A stretch of 64,000 nucleotides of DNA, from the NCBI RefSeq assembly GCF_000425465.1, contig NZ_AUDM01000010.1, positions 62,001-126,000 on the forward strand, written 5' to 3'. Position 1 is the first letter of the stretch. Every line of letters starts with the position of its first letter. Both the position numbers and the translations under genes were made by a program. The notes below the pieces were generated by a model that worked only from the letters and a program-made list of their open reading frames with translations, did not search any database and had not been told where the DNA came from. This DNA comes from Flavobacterium filum DSM 17961 (GTDB taxonomy: Bacteria; Bacteroidota; Bacteroidia; Flavobacteriales; Flavobacteriaceae). Shown here piece after piece: positions 41,113-46,806 of this stretch.

Positions 41113-41730
41113 TTAGAATTTATAATTAACTCCAAAAGTTACAGCTCTCCAATCTCCACCAAAAGAGAAAGTGTTTGTTTTATCTGCACCGTCACCACCA
41201 TTATCATTAGATGCATAACCTAACACCCCAACACCAGCTTCAATTGAAAAATTAGATGAAACAAAATAATTCATTCCAAAACCTAATCCGAAACCAATTT
41301 CTTTGCTTTCAACTGATGTTTCAGGAGCAAATAATTCACCATCAATAATAAAATATTCATTGTCAAAAGAGGTGTAATTAACACCTAATTCAGCAAATAA
41401 AGAAAATTTACTCGCAGGTGTAAAATAGTAACGACCAAAAGCTCCTAAACCTAAACCTGTATTAGCAACATCTTCTCCGTCAAAATCAAGTTTGTTTGAC
41501 TGATATCCAATTGACCCACCTATTGCAATATTTTCTGTAACAAAATATCCCACTTTAGGCGCCACTTCAAAAGAGTTTACTTTAAAATCTCCTGTTTTAG
41601 AAGTACTAAAAGAAAAAGCTCCTGAAATAAAAAGATCTCCTTTAGCAAATCCTGCTTCGTTAGAAGTTTCTTGTGCATTAGCTGTTCCAAAAGTAGCAAC
41701 TGCTAAAAGTGATAAAATAATTTTTTTCAT
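41113..41730 (-). CDS. Outer-membrane beta-barrel protein (porin family)
   Basis: The product is 205 residues with signal peptide MKKIILSLLAVATFGTANAQ. The rest is beta-strands with alternating hydrophobics and many glycines, and ends with a strand finishing VTFGVNYKF, the C-terminal Phe typical of barrels inserted by BamA. The signal peptide, the final residues and the terminator closely resemble the neighbour at 41909, so the two arose by duplication although the bodies differ. A role as a small eight-strand barrel is likely. Confidence 0.85.
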   Translation of the reverse strand: MKKIILSLLAVATFGTANAQETSNEAGFAKGDLFISGAFSFSTSKTGDFKVNSFEVAPKVGYFVTENIAIGGSIGYQSNKLDFDGEDVANTGLGLGAFGRYYFTPASKFSLFAELGVNYTSFDNEYFIIDGELFAPETSVESKEIGFGLGFGMNYFVSSNFSIEAGVGVLGYASNDNGGDGADKTNTFSFGGDWRAVTFGVNYKF

Positions 41731-41861
41731 GTTTTAATTGTTTTAAAATTTTTGCAAAAATAATAAAAATACTACACAAAGTAATAAAACAATTAAAATC
41801 ATTCTCTATTTTTTATATGTCTTTAAAAACCAATACAATAAAACAAGTATTTATCATTAAT

Positions 41862-41890
41862 AAAAAAACCACGCACTAGGCGTGGTTTTA
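41862..41890 (-). terminator. Terminator of the 166-residue beta-barrel gene
   Basis: On the minus strand the stem aaccacgc / gcgtggtt (41868-41875 and 41880-41887) is followed by a run of T. Confidence 0.9.
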
Positions 41891-41908
41891 AACTATATAA
41901 AAATTCAA

Positions 41909-42409
41909 TTAGAATTTGTAGTTGAATCCTAAATTAATAGAAGAAAAAGTACCTCCATCAACAGCAATTCCTTTGTAACCAGCATAAACCTCAAATTTTT
42001 CAGCTTGGTAACCTACTTTTGGTTGGTATAATAAACCACCATTCATTCCACTTGGGCTAACTCCTAAAGCATAACCTAAATCTAAACCACCGAAAATGTT
42101 ATCAGTGAAAGAATATTGAGCAGTACCAGCAATTGGAATAAGTCCAGCATCTTCAACATCAACTTCAATACCAAATCCTAAATCAACAGTTTTACCCATG
42201 TAATGAGCATAACCAGTAGTTACACCAGCACGGAATTTATCAGCTACTTCCCATGTATAAGCTACATCAAGACCTACTGCTAAAGAGTAAGAATCTTTAA
42301 TGTCACCCATTGGTAAACCAACATTGATACCAGCTTTAAATCCACCATCTTGTGCATTAGCAGTTCCAAATGCTGCAACCGCTAAAATTGATAAAATAAT
42401 TTTTTTCAT
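41909..42409 (-). CDS. Outer-membrane beta-barrel protein (porin family)
   Basis: The product is 166 residues with signal peptide MKKIILSILAVAAFGTANAQ, almost identical to that of the gene downstream. The start of the mature part, GGFKAGINVGLPMGD, and the last strand, SINLGFNYKF, are typical of PorT/OmpX-like barrels. It has its own promoter (42438-42466) and terminator and probably forms a small outer-membrane barrel of unknown ligand. Confidence 0.85.
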   Translation of the reverse strand: MKKIILSILAVAAFGTANAQDGGFKAGINVGLPMGDIKDSYSLAVGLDVAYTWEVADKFRAGVTTGYAHYMGKTVDLGFGIEVDVEDAGLIPIAGTAQYSFTDNIFGGLDLGYALGVSPSGMNGGLLYQPKVGYQAEKFEVYAGYKGIAVDGGTFSSINLGFNYKF

Positions 42410-42437
42410 GTTTTAATTGTTTTATAATTAATATTAA

Positions 42438-42466
42438 CAAAATTAAAAAAAATATTGGTATTTCAA
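42438..42466 (-). promoter_or_regulatory. Promoter of the 166-residue beta-barrel gene
   Basis: Read on the minus strand: TTG (42466-42464), 18 bases, TAATTTTG (42445-42438), 29 bases before the ATG at 42409. Confidence 0.7.
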
Positions 42467-42775
42467 AATCAATAAACTTGAGTTATTAACAAGTTTGTTG
42501 ATAACTTAAAAATGATTTTTAAATATTTAATATACTGATTTTCAATTTATTAATTTAAATAAATTTAAGTATAGTAAAATAAATGTTAAAAAACTTACTT
42601 TTTTACAACAAAGTAAACTTATATAAAACATCAAAATATTCCCATTTTTAATATATATATTTATAAAACTAAATGAATTTATAAACCAATTCAGTTATTT
42701 TTACAAATAATAAACTCAATCAAAATAAGTTATAACTAAAAGAATTCAAATTAAAATCAACTAAAATCTATCACA
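42467..42775. other. AT-rich intergenic region without genes
   Basis: This gap lies between the divergent beta-barrel genes at 42409 and 42776. It is very AT-rich and contains no reading frame that I would trust, no clear hairpin terminator and no second promoter of consensus type. It probably carries the regulatory sites of the gene at 42776, but I cannot point to them. Confidence 0.6.
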
Positions 42776-43318
42776 ATGAAAAAAATCATTTTTATTAGTG
42801 CATTTCTTTTAATTGGCATTTTTCAGGCAGATGCTCAAATGCTAAAATTTGGTGTAAAAGCCGGGGCCAATTTTAATAGCCTAGATGGTGATGATGCTCA
42901 AGGTCTTGACACCTATACTAGTTTTCATTTTGGAGCTTTATTGGAAGTAAAAGTTTTCGAGAACTTTGCCATTCAACCCGAGTTATTGTATTCTTCTCAA
43001 GGAGCAAAAGTAAATGAAGAAAATATTAAGGACATCAATTTTAGCTATATCACAGTTCCTGTATTGGCGAAATTCTATCTCATCACCGATAAATTGAGTT
43101 TAGAAGCAGGACCACAATTTTCGTTTTTGGTAAATGAAAATGTGCCTGATCAATTTGAGTCTAAATCTTTTGATTTTGCCGCTGTTGGCGGTTTAGGATT
43201 TAATTTTACTGAAAATATTTTTGCTCAAGCACGCTACGTAGCCGGTTTAACGGATACTACAAAAGATGCGGAAATCAAAAATCGAGTTATTCAAGTTTCA
43301 GTGGGTTACCGTTTCTAA
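42776..43318 (+). CDS. PorT-family outer-membrane beta-barrel protein
   Basis: The product is 180 residues with signal peptide ending at ADAQ. The conserved FGVKAGANFNSLDG, the IQPELLYSSQGAK strand, and VPVLAKFYLI are characteristic of the PorT/outer-membrane beta-barrel family (OMP_b-brl_2). The final strand is IQVSVGYRF. Whether it is the type IX secretion component PorT or one of the many other members cannot be decided; its short length favours a generic member. The long inverted repeat at 43338 follows it. Confidence 0.82.
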   Translation: MKKIIFISAFLLIGIFQADAQMLKFGVKAGANFNSLDGDDAQGLDTYTSFHFGALLEVKVFENFAIQPELLYSSQGAKVNEENIKDINFSYITVPVLAKFYLITDKLSLEAGPQFSFLVNENVPDQFESKSFDFAAVGGLGFNFTENIFAQARYVAGLTDTTKDAEIKNRVIQVSVGYRF

Positions 43319-43403: not shown

Positions 43404-45155
43404 TTACTTTCCTACTTTATCCGAAACAAAACCGCCTTTTGCACTGGATACTTCAACAGTTGCTCCATTCGGATTGCCACTTACAATCCATCTCACTTTT
43501 ACATTACCCATTCCGGAAATATTGGCCACTTTGATGGTTTGTGGTGAATTTTTTTGTTCAGTAAATAAATTTAAATCTTCATTTTCAACTGTCATTCCTG
43601 TAATCACTTTCACCCCTTTCAAACTGATGTAATCAGGACGCTCAATTTTGTTTTTTATGTCATGTGTTGAATGCGTCGGAATGATTCTAGTATTCATAAT
43701 TGTTGCTGTAACCGCTGTTAATCCACCTTGCAATTTCTCTGTTTTAATATCTACAATCTCCAATTTTGGTGTTTGATACGCATGATATAAGGTAAAAGCC
43801 ATGTTTCGATGAGCGTCTTCCTGCAACATAAAACCAGGGTGATTTCTGATATAGTTTTTCTTAGCTCCGCCAATTTCAATTTCGCCAAACTGAGGATGAT
43901 TGAAGGGTTTCCATTCTACATATCCATCACCAAACAACAAATATTTGTCAAATTCATTAAATTCATCATTGTCCCATCTGCTCCAAGAACTTTTTTGATT
44001 GAACAATTTATAGGAAGTCATCAATTCATTACTAAACGTAAAAATTCCTCTTGTAAGCGACAAATAATCAATTTCACCACCATAAACGGTATATAAATCT
44101 TTATGCAAAATGAAATAATTATAACCCGGAATCATTTTTTCACCCAATTTTCCGATGTTATCATACACTTCAATATCTTGTCTGCTATACAACGGATCAT
44201 CTTCTGCCGCACCCGGTCCGCGTAAAAACATTCCACCATAATTATGATAACTTTGAGCTCCTGCAATATTTGGATGTTTGGTGACAAAATCTTTTACTGC
44301 CCGAGTTTCAGGTAAGGTCCCAGGATAAAATAAGGCACCGTTTTGTACATAATTGGGTTGCCAATTCCACCCCCAATCACGATTAGGATCATACGTTCCC
44401 ACTTGATCTTCGTTTACTAATCCATCGCCGTCATTGTCCATTCCTTCGTATCCTAACATTTCATATTCGCCTTTTTCATCACCACGCACTTGATACATTC
44501 TAGTGGGATATTTAGGATCAATTTTAAAACGACCGGTTTTCGATTTGCGTCGCATCATCACAATGTTTCCATCGCTATCTAAATCATCCAATTTATCTTC
44601 ATTTACCAAACCATCGCCATCGTTATCAAATGGTCGCATTCCGGAACGGGAAGTGTTGGAATTGTTTTCTTTGTAAATAAAATTTTCTCTCGCATCCGGA
44701 CTAATGGTTAAAGCGATGTAAAATACTTTTTCTTTCAATAAATTAGCGATAAATTTAACTGAATGAAAGTTTTCTGCAAGATACCAAGCCGTATACATGG
44801 AAACTTCTACTCCTTGTAATTCATTCGCATGAATACCACCATCGATATAAAATCCGGGTTTATTTTTTTCTTCTCCTGTTTTAAAGTCGGTTAAGGTCAA
44901 CACCCAAATGTCTCGTCCTTCAAATGACTTTCCAATGGATTCCATCTTAACCAAATTGGGATACGCTTTTACTAAATCTTTACCAAATTGTGTAATTTGA
45001 GCATAATCATGATAGCGATCCCACGACATTCTAACTTTTGGGTTGGCAGGAGAACCAATGGCTCGCATACCATTTAAATCTTGAGGAGCAATATTTTGAG
45101 CATAAATAGCTGTTGAAAACAAACTGATTAAGGCGAAGTATATTATTTTTTTCAT
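43404..45155 (-). CDS. M14 family zinc carboxypeptidase, exported
   Basis: The product is 583 residues with signal peptide MKKIIYFALISLFSTAIYAQ. The zinc site is complete: H109 and E112 in GGIHANELQG, and H304 in QSYHNYGG. The general-base Glu is E377 in FTFSNELMT. Two inserted acidic loops (DNDGDGLVNEDKLDDLDSDG at about 177-196 and DNDGDGLVNED at 240-250) look like calcium-binding sites. A C-terminal beta domain follows (about 450-583). It should remove C-terminal residues from peptides in the periplasm or outside. It lies 7 bp after a second M14-like gene and shares an operon with it. Confidence 0.9.
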   Translation of the reverse strand: MKKIIYFALISLFSTAIYAQNIAPQDLNGMRAIGSPANPKVRMSWDRYHDYAQITQFGKDLVKAYPNLVKMESIGKSFEGRDIWVLTLTDFKTGEEKNKPGFYIDGGIHANELQGVEVSMYTAWYLAENFHSVKFIANLLKEKVFYIALTISPDARENFIYKENNSNTSRSGMRPFDNDGDGLVNEDKLDDLDSDGNIVMMRRKSKTGRFKIDPKYPTRMYQVRGDEKGEYEMLGYEGMDNDGDGLVNEDQVGTYDPNRDWGWNWQPNYVQNGALFYPGTLPETRAVKDFVTKHPNIAGAQSYHNYGGMFLRGPGAAEDDPLYSRQDIEVYDNIGKLGEKMIPGYNYFILHKDLYTVYGGEIDYLSLTRGIFTFSNELMTSYKLFNQKSSWSRWDNDEFNEFDKYLLFGDGYVEWKPFNHPQFGEIEIGGAKKNYIRNHPGFMLQEDAHRNMAFTLYHAYQTPKLEIVDIKTEKLQGGLTAVTATIMNTRIIPTHSTHDIKNKIERPDYISLKGVKVITGMTVENEDLNLFTEQKNSPQTIKVANISGMGNVKVRWIVSGNPNGATVEVSSAKGGFVSDKVGK

Positions 45156-45162
45156 GGCACAC

Positions 45163-46806
45163 TTATTTTAAATCAATACTAATTTCTTTTACACCAGTGG
45201 TGGCACATCCTGTTGTGATAACCACTTTTCCTTTTCCGGCTATCAACCATGAATATTCTTCAGATTCATCCGGTTGAAGTGCATTTCGAAGAAAATATTT
45301 TCTACCGGATAACATCGATTGAATGGCATTCAATTTAATCTCAGTTTTCATTCTGGAAATAAAACGGATTTTATCACCAATTTCTGTGTAGGTTGGCAAT
45401 AAACCTTTATTAGCTACTTTTAAAGTAACGCGATAAACATCTCCTTCTAATTTTTCAATTAACGGCTGAGTAGTCTCAATTTTTGGCATTGCACTAACCA
45501 AATCGGTTAAAAATAGTTTATGCTTATTTACTGCTTCATCTAAAAATTGAGCGGGCGGATTATGCATCACAAAAGGTAAAAATCCACCAACTTCCACTTT
45601 TTGATTCGGAAAATCAGGATGTTTAATTTCTGTCCAATTTAAAAACACATTTTTTACTTCATTTCTTTCTGCCCATTTTAAAAATTCAAGTTCTGGAAAA
45701 ACTTCATTCATTTCTCCTTTTTTTGGTTTTTCCACTTTTGGAGCTGTTGAATCTTTTTTCATTTCTTCTTTTGGAATCCACCATCCGGGAGTAGAAAAGC
45801 TGAATCTTCCGGCATGAAAATAAGCAGTTTGGGCAAAATTTCCTTTAGTCATTGGCATTTTTGGTGCATCTTTTAAACCTGCTTTTTGCGAATATATTTT
45901 TGAAACTTGTTCAGCAGCTTTCACATCTTTTTCCATCCAACCTTTAATAATTCTACCCGAAGAAGATTTACTATCAAACTTAGGTGCCTCTGATAAGTTA
46001 TTATGCATGCCAAACGTTATGACACCATAAATTTGTGGATTGAGGTATAAAAAATCTAGCAATGCTTTTGTTTCCGGTTCTGATGCAGCATAATTTCCAG
46101 CTCCTTTTTCAAATGCCGGATAATCAAAAGTAAAATTTTTATCGATGTTAACACCTTCTGAAAAGTCTTCGTTAAATTCACCATCTTTATCATTGTCTTT
46201 TCCTTCTGTAAACAATAGATATTTTCCAATTTGATTTTTACTTTGATCCGCTTTTACCAAAATCCTGTTGTCATCTGCATTTTCAATATAATTTCCGGCT
46301 ACACTTTCCACTCGCATTTGTGAAATATAACCATCACTATTTAAGTCTTCAAATCCGTCTTCACCAAATTCACCGTCTTTGTCATCATCAGTTACCGTTG
46401 CATTTCCGCTTTTTTCAAATTTCAATTTACTGAAATAAGCAGCCGTTGCATCCGGATTTACGGAAGGAACAAAATAAAGCGTTTTTTCCTCCAAAACTTT
46501 AGAAAATGCATTATCAGTCAACAATTGTTCCATCAATTTTATCGACATCAATGTACCAGACTGATGCTTACCATCAATTCCGGCTGTAATTAATAAAGAA
46601 GGTTTAGTTTTTTCGCTTGAAGACAATGTAATCAACCAAATATCTTTACCTCCACTACTTTTGCCAATGGATTTGACTTTACAGTTTTTGTGTTTACTTT
46701 CTAAATCTTTTACCTTTTTAGAAAGACTTTCATACGAATAATAGTCACTTTGTGCTTGCATTATTCCAACACAAAACAGTGAAAAGAGTAATAATTTTAA
46801 TTTCAT
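45163..46806 (-). CDS. M14-like protein with altered active site
   Basis: The product is 547 residues with a signal peptide ending near GIMQAQ. It has the same layout as its neighbour, with acidic loops (DDDKDGEFGEDGFEDLNSDG about 140-159 and DNDKDGEFNED about 204-214) and a C-terminal beta domain. At the zinc site, however, the HxxE motif reads D78-G-K-H81 in AGIDGKHQSG; H268 (FGMHNN) is kept. The base Glu position reads FSFSTPGW. It is therefore probably not a standard carboxypeptidase; it may be a pseudo-enzyme partner of the downstream one or use a different metal arrangement. Confidence 0.82.
   Translation of the reverse strand: MKLKLLLFSLFCVGIMQAQSDYYSYESLSKKVKDLESKHKNCKVKSIGKSSGGKDIWLITLSSSEKTKPSLLITAGIDGKHQSGTLMSIKLMEQLLTDNAFSKVLEEKTLYFVPSVNPDATAAYFSKLKFEKSGNATVTDDDKDGEFGEDGFEDLNSDGYISQMRVESVAGNYIENADDNRILVKADQSKNQIGKYLLFTEGKDNDKDGEFNEDFSEGVNIDKNFTFDYPAFEKGAGNYAASEPETKALLDFLYLNPQIYGVITFGMHNNLSEAPKFDSKSSSGRIIKGWMEKDVKAAEQVSKIYSQKAGLKDAPKMPMTKGNFAQTAYFHAGRFSFSTPGWWIPKEEMKKDSTAPKVEKPKKGEMNEVFPELEFLKWAERNEVKNVFLNWTEIKHPDFPNQKVEVGGFLPFVMHNPPAQFLDEAVNKHKLFLTDLVSAMPKIETTQPLIEKLEGDVYRVTLKVANKGLLPTYTEIGDKIRFISRMKTEIKLNAIQSMLSGRKYFLRNALQPDESEEYSWLIAGKGKVVITTGCATTGVKEISIDLK

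Follow-up and report, generated by a model that had tools for sequence, protein, structure and literature searches.

Why should a bacterium keep, side by side, two genes of one peptidase family, when one of them has lost the residues of the active site? The question is raised by a stretch of 64,000 nucleotides from Flavobacterium filum DSM 17961 (contig NZ_AUDM01000010.1, positions 62,001 to 126,000; the whole stretch is called the window, and positions are counted from its first letter), in which two genes of the metallocarboxypeptidase family M14 stand in tandem. Both open reading frames (ORFs) lie on the minus strand and, as was claimed in a first-pass annotation of the window, have 7 bases between them, the first gene of the pair encoding a protein of 547 amino acids (P0001) and the second one a protein of 583 amino acids (P0002):

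45163..46806, minus strand: inactive M14 homologue P0001 (68.6 bits against PF00246, and predicted fold)
45156..45162, minus strand: gap of 7 bases from the P0001 stop to the P0002 start
43404..45155, minus strand: M14 peptidase P0002 with a complete active site (115 bits against PF00246)

Our analysis suggests that the product of the pair is probably an exported M14 metallocarboxypeptidase of two subunits, of which the dead one would bind, present or gate the substrate, or stabilise its partner.

Both profile scores are above the curated cut-off (21.6 bits), and carboxypeptidase T of Thermoactinomyces vulgaris was the top solved structure by sequence for either protein (expectation value 8.2e-16 for P0002). 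The site residues of P0002 are retained throughout its active relatives, which are represented by 107 aligned rows:

44820..44831, minus strand: H109-A-N-E112 zinc motif of P0002 (H in 106, E in 107 of 107 active rows)
44379..44384, minus strand: N258-R259, predicted substrate carboxylate pair of P0002 (N in 104, R in 106 of 107)
44244..44246, minus strand: H304, third zinc ligand of P0002 (106 of 107; X in the remaining row)
44025..44027, minus strand: E377, catalytic base of P0002 (107 of 107)

Together with Y355, the equivalent of Tyr248, the residues H109, E112, N258, R259, H304 and E377 make up the M14 site, each being found in 104-107 of the 107 sequences; the H109xxE112, H304 and E377 noticed earlier in the downstream enzyme are thereby all accounted for. 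As predicted from these residues, P0002 is most likely a zinc-dependent carboxypeptidase. The Asn-Arg pair, matched by alignment columns, is the one which we take to hold the substrate carboxylate in carboxypeptidase A, and R170 of P0002 presumably corresponds, by its column, to Arg127; the roles which Arg127, Asn144, Arg145 and Tyr248 play in carboxypeptidase A are assumed here and transferred through alignment columns.

The corresponding columns of P0001, as located by alignment, are occupied quite differently:

46564..46575, minus strand: D78-G-K-H81 of P0001, at the columns of the HxxE zinc motif
46138..46143, minus strand: D222-K223 of P0001, at the columns of the Asn-Arg pair
45994..46011, minus strand: P0001 residues 266-271 (G266, then N269-N270-L271), at the column of the third zinc ligand
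45778..45795, minus strand: S338-T339-P340-G341-W342-W343 of P0001, replacing the catalytic Glu segment

Neither HxxE nor the distal His was found in P0001, where the D78xxH81 described earlier is indeed present at the motif columns, and residue 340, which aligns with the catalytic Glu (Glu270 in carboxypeptidase A), is Pro. The M14 fold is predicted to be whole, because the model of P0001 (predicted local distance difference test score, pLDDT, 87.6; predicted template modelling score, pTM, 0.87) matched carboxypeptidases T, A and B at Z about 30 in a fold search, with carboxypeptidase T as the best match (3prt, Z 30.7, root-mean-square deviation 2.8 across 288 residues). Since none of 115 aligned inactive sequences has His at position 78 or Glu at position 81, and the third ligand is lost, P0001 is, as judged from its residues, a non-peptidase homologue rather than an M14 peptidase.

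The inactive and active relatives were gathered from genome contigs (the best 80 of 314 loci, among which the best-matching named relatives are Flavobacterium species, L068-L074) and from family and phylum samples; their ORFs were classed with two profiles, and the resulting alignment comprised 115 inactive and 107 active sequences, the window proteins included. Some records are doubled via two collections (L008 and L120 are apparently one contig), and after weighting the sets amount to 72.2 and 44.9 effective rows, respectively. The conservation sets exclude ORFs of 450 amino acids or less, such as those of the broken partner in L067 and of the broken inactive gene in L180. The three zinc ligands and the catalytic Glu are retained in 106 or 107 of the 107 active sequences. 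Among the 115 inactive ones, the zinc-His column is occupied by E (54), D (42), K (11), Q (3), N (3) or S (2) and never by His, the zinc-Glu column by H (82), Q (11), L (10), Y (5) or other residues (7) and never by Glu, the third-ligand column (266) by G (101), S (12), A (1) or E (1), and the catalytic-Glu column (340) by P in 109; the residues that follow the third-ligand column are N269 (108), N270 (108) and L271 (114). The Asn-Arg pair is partly retained, residue 222 being N in 79 and D in 26 sequences and residue 223 being K in 87 and R in 20. Fixed switches around the old site, read from active to inactive in the merged alignment, are R170 to N135, H304 to G266, G307-G308-M309 to N269-N270-L271, and N376-E377 to T339-P340. 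The loss of catalytic residues is old and complete in the inactive clade.

The first-pass annotation had singled out both the D/H residues and an FSTPGW segment as the changes whose conservation would matter, and the two fared differently. The segment is conserved (S338 in 85, T339 in 110, P340 in 109, G341 in 101, W342 in 112 and W343 in 104 of 115 sequences), T339 being more conserved than 86%, P340 than 84%, W342 than 93%, G341 than 77%, W343 than 76% and S338 than 65% of the columns. The D/H residues vary by clade: the D..H combination occurs in 32 of 115 sequences, E..H likewise in 32, E..Q in 7 of 8 Hymenobacteraceae, K..H in 11 of 13 members of the group coded f23, and D..L in 3 of 19 Flavobacteriaceae, while the conservation of D78 (above 59% of columns) and H81 (above 57%) is average. 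The TPGWW segment is thus the more general change and D78/H81 a local, clade-level state; TPGWW is also lost in the deepest members (e.g., L176, L178, L179 and L183), which counts against a simple rule.

These counts bear on the suggestion that P0001 is still an enzyme, which would coordinate a metal by D/E78 and H81, or else carry out metal-free chemistry. Residue 78 is acidic in 96 of 115 sequences and residue 81 is His in 82, which would suit such a role, as would the near-invariance of Y329, H331, N135, N269, N270 and T339 in the inactive set, and the M14 enzyme Csd4 of Helicobacter pylori, reportedly active with an altered zinc ligand, would be a precedent; we nevertheless regard it as improbable, given that positions 78 and 81 are average in conservation and vary by clade, that the third ligand is not conserved, and that 109 of 115 sequences have Pro where the catalytic Glu would be. 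In particular, a conserved metal site at D78/H81 is unlikely, because these residues are clade-level states, and the earlier idea that the protein binds metal in a new way is disfavored for the same reason and by the lack of a conserved His at the third-ligand column. H268, two residues after G266, was considered as a shifted ligand and rejected as a general one, being His in just 8 of 115 sequences; H331 is conserved in 112 of 115 and is a lone His. A related view, in which the pair would form a two-site M14 machine, has the P0001 pocket (E/D78, H81, N135, N222-K223, N269-N270, Y329, H331, T339 and W342) recognizing or modifying, by a new activity or by peptide reading, the peptide that P0002 trims, any such activity being metal-free or differently coordinated; we consider it distinctly unlikely.

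Could the first gene simply be a duplicate on its way to becoming a pseudogene? The evolutionary rate of the first gene is about double that of the second one, and in one relative (in L180/L265) it is broken into two frames, as decay would predict. Against this stand the open frames, ratios of nonsynonymous to synonymous substitution rates (dN/dS) far below 1, and a single old clade, the members of which have conserved new residues in common, so that ongoing decay appears extremely improbable, and the simple decay envisaged by the first-pass annotation may be dismissed in view of the strong purifying selection and the conserved residues shared by inactive relatives. By the NG86 method, where computable, dN/dS was 0.05-0.19 for the inactive gene and 0.013-0.08 for the active one, several dS values being near or beyond saturation. 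In both trees, which were built by a quick search with long rows included, the inactive sequences form one clade and the active sequences another (support 99 each in one tree, 92 and 100 in the other); catalysis therefore seems to have been lost once. Direct duplication of one clade into the other is not claimed, as the sister relation between them received a support of just 34.

Several further M14 proteins were encountered. The loci L262 and L263 contain a second, deeper type of pair in the same order, with an inactive protein of 691-734 amino acids and an active one of about 600 amino acids, and genome G270 carries both pair types. The six examined members of a separate M14 group (L256-L261; 652-694 amino acids) keep HxxE and Glu and, according to the alignment only, have Asp at the third zinc-ligand column, in a motif MDTRVPM. 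The search of plasmids gave one record, a haloarchaeal M14 protein (L255:4983-6617, Halomontanus rarus plasmid NZ_CP119797.1) of about the length of P0001 and 24% identical to it, with HxxE, His and Glu intact; it could be similar to the active ancestor from which the inactive clade arose. The record holds two matches, and in the 11.6 kb inspected around this one the annotation lists no M14 partner.

The two genes are kept together with great regularity. Room downstream of the inactive gene is available in 79 of the 80 named loci, and in 77 of these the active gene is the next one, intact in 76 and in two reading-frame pieces in one (L067). The intergenic gap has a median of 13 bases in 74 related loci, with start sites chosen automatically. 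In a phylum sample of 296 genomes, strong matches to the inactive protein were found in 30 genomes and to the active one in 31, with 30 common to both, under limits for "strong" (1e-60 and 1e-150) that were chosen after the lists were inspected; in the odd genome (G311) the active gene begins at base 26 of the contig, where any upstream gene would be cut off. At the default limits of the searches 36 of the 296 genomes matched in each search, of which G224, G304, G311, G315, G335 and G355 match, so far as they were inspected, via the partner or other M14 proteins only. Both genes are carried by the identical 7 of 120 genomes in the family sample; the genus sample gave a full-length match in 1 of 61 genomes, that of the window, and weak partial matches in 5 more. 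No third gene family was found constantly beside the pair among ORFs of at least 150 amino acids in the 80 loci, the next real neighbor (an ATP-binding cassette, or ABC, transporter) being present in 11 of 80. A larger operon was considered and discarded, since the biggest neighbor cluster, with 67 ORFs from 36 loci, and another from 8 loci consist of minus-strand ORFs that overlie the M14 genes. The coexistence of one intact and one degenerate M14 protein first noticed at this locus thus recurs across the phylum, in both residue loss and gene order, far beyond chance.

Two loci deserve description in their own right. In L067 (7640-9395), the closest relative, where the inactive protein is 96% identical to P0001, the split of the active gene across two frames stems either from a genuine frameshift or from misassembly of the metagenome-assembled genome. 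L265 (G293:C74:5900-11800) is a three-gene array, in which an inactive gene broken in two frames is followed by two active M14 genes.

The pair also appears to travel as a unit. In 30 genomes, hand-picked for diversity from the 80 loci without the genome of the window, the pairwise distances of the inactive proteins correlated with those of the active ones (r 0.835; partial r 0.811 with RecA held constant), and 0 of 2000 shuffles attained either value; the correlation with RecA distances was low for the inactive (0.44) and the active (0.34) proteins. For the Flavobacterium loci L069 and L071, the nearest RecA proteins, after each other, are those of Winogradskyella, Gaetbulibacter, Polaribacter and Cellulophaga, and for both members of the pair the nearest proteins are those of Emticicia and other Cytophagia. 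The interval between the outer-membrane gene at 42776-43318 and aroQ holds, in the window, precisely the two M14 genes, and in 17 of 25 genomes of the same genus, none of which has the pair, the homologue of this outer-membrane gene lies directly upstream of aroQ. This shows that exactly this two-gene unit was gained or lost at the site, and the distances favor gain over loss; the best explanation is that the pair is an old, mobile two-gene unit, which is transferred jointly. The neighboring region of the window (41113-43318), located between xerD and aroQ, contains small outer-membrane beta-barrel-like genes.

Beyond the catalytic columns, the two proteins share a common plan: a signal-peptide-like start, the M14 domain, two acidic calcium-type loops and C-terminal regions that align. 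In P0001 the following elements were delimited, the first as read from the sequence and the loops by conservation:

46750..46806, minus strand: signal-peptide-like N-terminal segment, P0001 residues 1-19
46357..46395, minus strand: calcium-type acidic loop 1, P0001 residues 138-150
46165..46197, minus strand: calcium-type acidic loop 2, P0001 residues 204-214

D140, D142, D144, G145, E149 and D150 of loop 1, a putative calcium site, and D204, D206, D208, N212, E213 and D214 of loop 2 are each conserved at 90% or more in both clades. The first-pass annotation was correct in matching the calcium-type loops, which lie at equivalent places and are conserved in both proteins, and the C-terminal domain. 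All 115 inactive rows satisfied a home-made h-region/lipobox rule, which is a lenient one. No C-terminal sorting domain of type IX secretion was found among NCBIfam and Pfam matches (E of 1 or less) of either protein, the search being not exhaustive, and the NCBIfam search gave no usable model for the proteins of the pair. An anti-phage role was disregarded, as P0001 matches AbiEi only weakly (E 0.0084, 13.9 bits).

Since the homologue is conserved, its pocket re-modeled, and its gene inherited with a live partner, P0001 is best read as a dead subunit or dedicated cofactor, and the purifying selection, the near-strict co-occurrence and order, and the joint transfer bear out the earlier proposal that the inactive paralogue is kept as a functional partner. 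In the arrangement which we prefer, the second gene would supply the zinc-dependent catalytic subunit, and the first one a subunit of the same fold, devoid of zinc ligands and catalytic Glu, with a conserved re-modeled pocket (Asn135 for Arg, Asn/Asp-Lys/Arg at 222-223, Asn269-Asn270, Tyr329, His331 and Thr-Pro-Gly-Trp-Trp). The dead subunit would pair with the active one in the periplasm or outside, and would bind, present or gate the peptide substrate, or keep its partner in the active shape. Physical contact, pocket geometry and the substrate role of P0001 are inferred from sequence.

Alternatively, P0001 may be a dedicated regulator of its partner (an inhibitor, folding helper or peptide decoy) rather than a lasting subunit. 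The evidence of co-occurrence and co-transfer applies to a regulator equally; P0001 is translated first, in an order that is kept, and the M14 match of P0002 starts at residue 54, which leaves no space for a long propeptide. The sequence offers nothing to separate regulator from subunit; the conserved changed pocket columns, however, accord more readily with the binding of a ligand than with a role in folding only, and we hold a regulator to be unlikely, though by no means negligible.

Several observations weigh against a two-subunit enzyme. In L096 (Raineya) and L102 the active gene is not adjacent, yet is encoded elsewhere in the genome, and in the sampled genome G367 the two genes are on different contigs; no fusion of the inactive and active genes was seen, the longest matching ORF in the classified loci having 691 amino acids; the proposed pocket is drawn from alignment columns; co-transfer and order would equally fit two non-touching proteins of one pathway; and loss of ligands does not always abolish activity, as Csd4 of H. 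pylori, also an M14 protein, is reportedly active with Gln in place of a zinc His. The retention of both genes where they are unlinked and the absence of fusions from the classified loci would likewise suit proteins that act separately in one exported peptide-use pathway, their adjacency reflecting co-regulation only. Yet an order kept in 77 of 79 loci without a constant neighbor exceeds what is usual for co-regulation, and we find separate action quite improbable.

The proposed two-subunit enzyme has counterparts in other families. M16B heterodimers (mitochondrial processing peptidase, SPH2681/SPH2682, TTHA1264/TTHA1265 and AlbE/AlbF) pair two homologous proteins, of which one bears the zinc motif and both are needed, the prokaryotic ones being encoded by a two-gene operon (PMC12731061, PMC11266112), and in the M23B heterodimer Csd1:Csd2 of H. 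pylori a zinc-bound protein is joined by a metal-free homologue, Csd2, with incomplete ligands (PMC5053510). Like these, P0001 and P0002 are a homologous gene pair with the metal site in one member only. Unlike M16B, the pair belongs to another peptidase family and fold, and the M16B complexes are solved whereas that of P0001 and P0002 is inferred; both proteins are M14 by profile, P0001 also by fold and P0002 by sequence, rather than possessing HxxEH and the M16 fold, so that M16B serves as an analogy only. Csd1:Csd2 differs by its M23 family with a LytM domain and by dimerization driven by helical domains. Carboxypeptidase T, also among the best fold matches of P0001, is a 323-residue chain with an active site, much shorter than either protein of the pair.

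Within M14, the eukaryotic pseudopeptidases AEBP1, CPXM1, CPXM2, CPD domain III and Ecm14 have the M14 fold with altered catalytic residues; a table of the metallopeptidase pseudoenzyme review, which lists H69, E72, H196, R127, R145 and E270, shows His69 kept in 5 of 5 and Glu72 in 4 of 5 of them (PMC11266112). P0001 differs in having lost the equivalents of both, and no gene-paired active partner is described for the eukaryotic proteins in passages of the review that deal with M14, where the cases come from animals and yeast and no bacterial one is named (PMC11266112). No bacterial active/inactive M14 pair was found in the open-licence literature, as judged by titles and the beginnings of abstracts. 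Active/inactive peptidase pairs being already known, the bacterial M14 pair seems to be a new instance.

For genome annotation, the label of M14 carboxypeptidase given to each gene alone is misleading for the first gene and incomplete for the second. Adjacent pairs with both genes intact are present in 76 named loci, which provide a natural set for testing the role of a dead peptidase subunit. If the two-subunit interpretation is true, the principle of active and inactive subunits known from M16B and M23 would reach another metallopeptidase family, across Bacteroidota.

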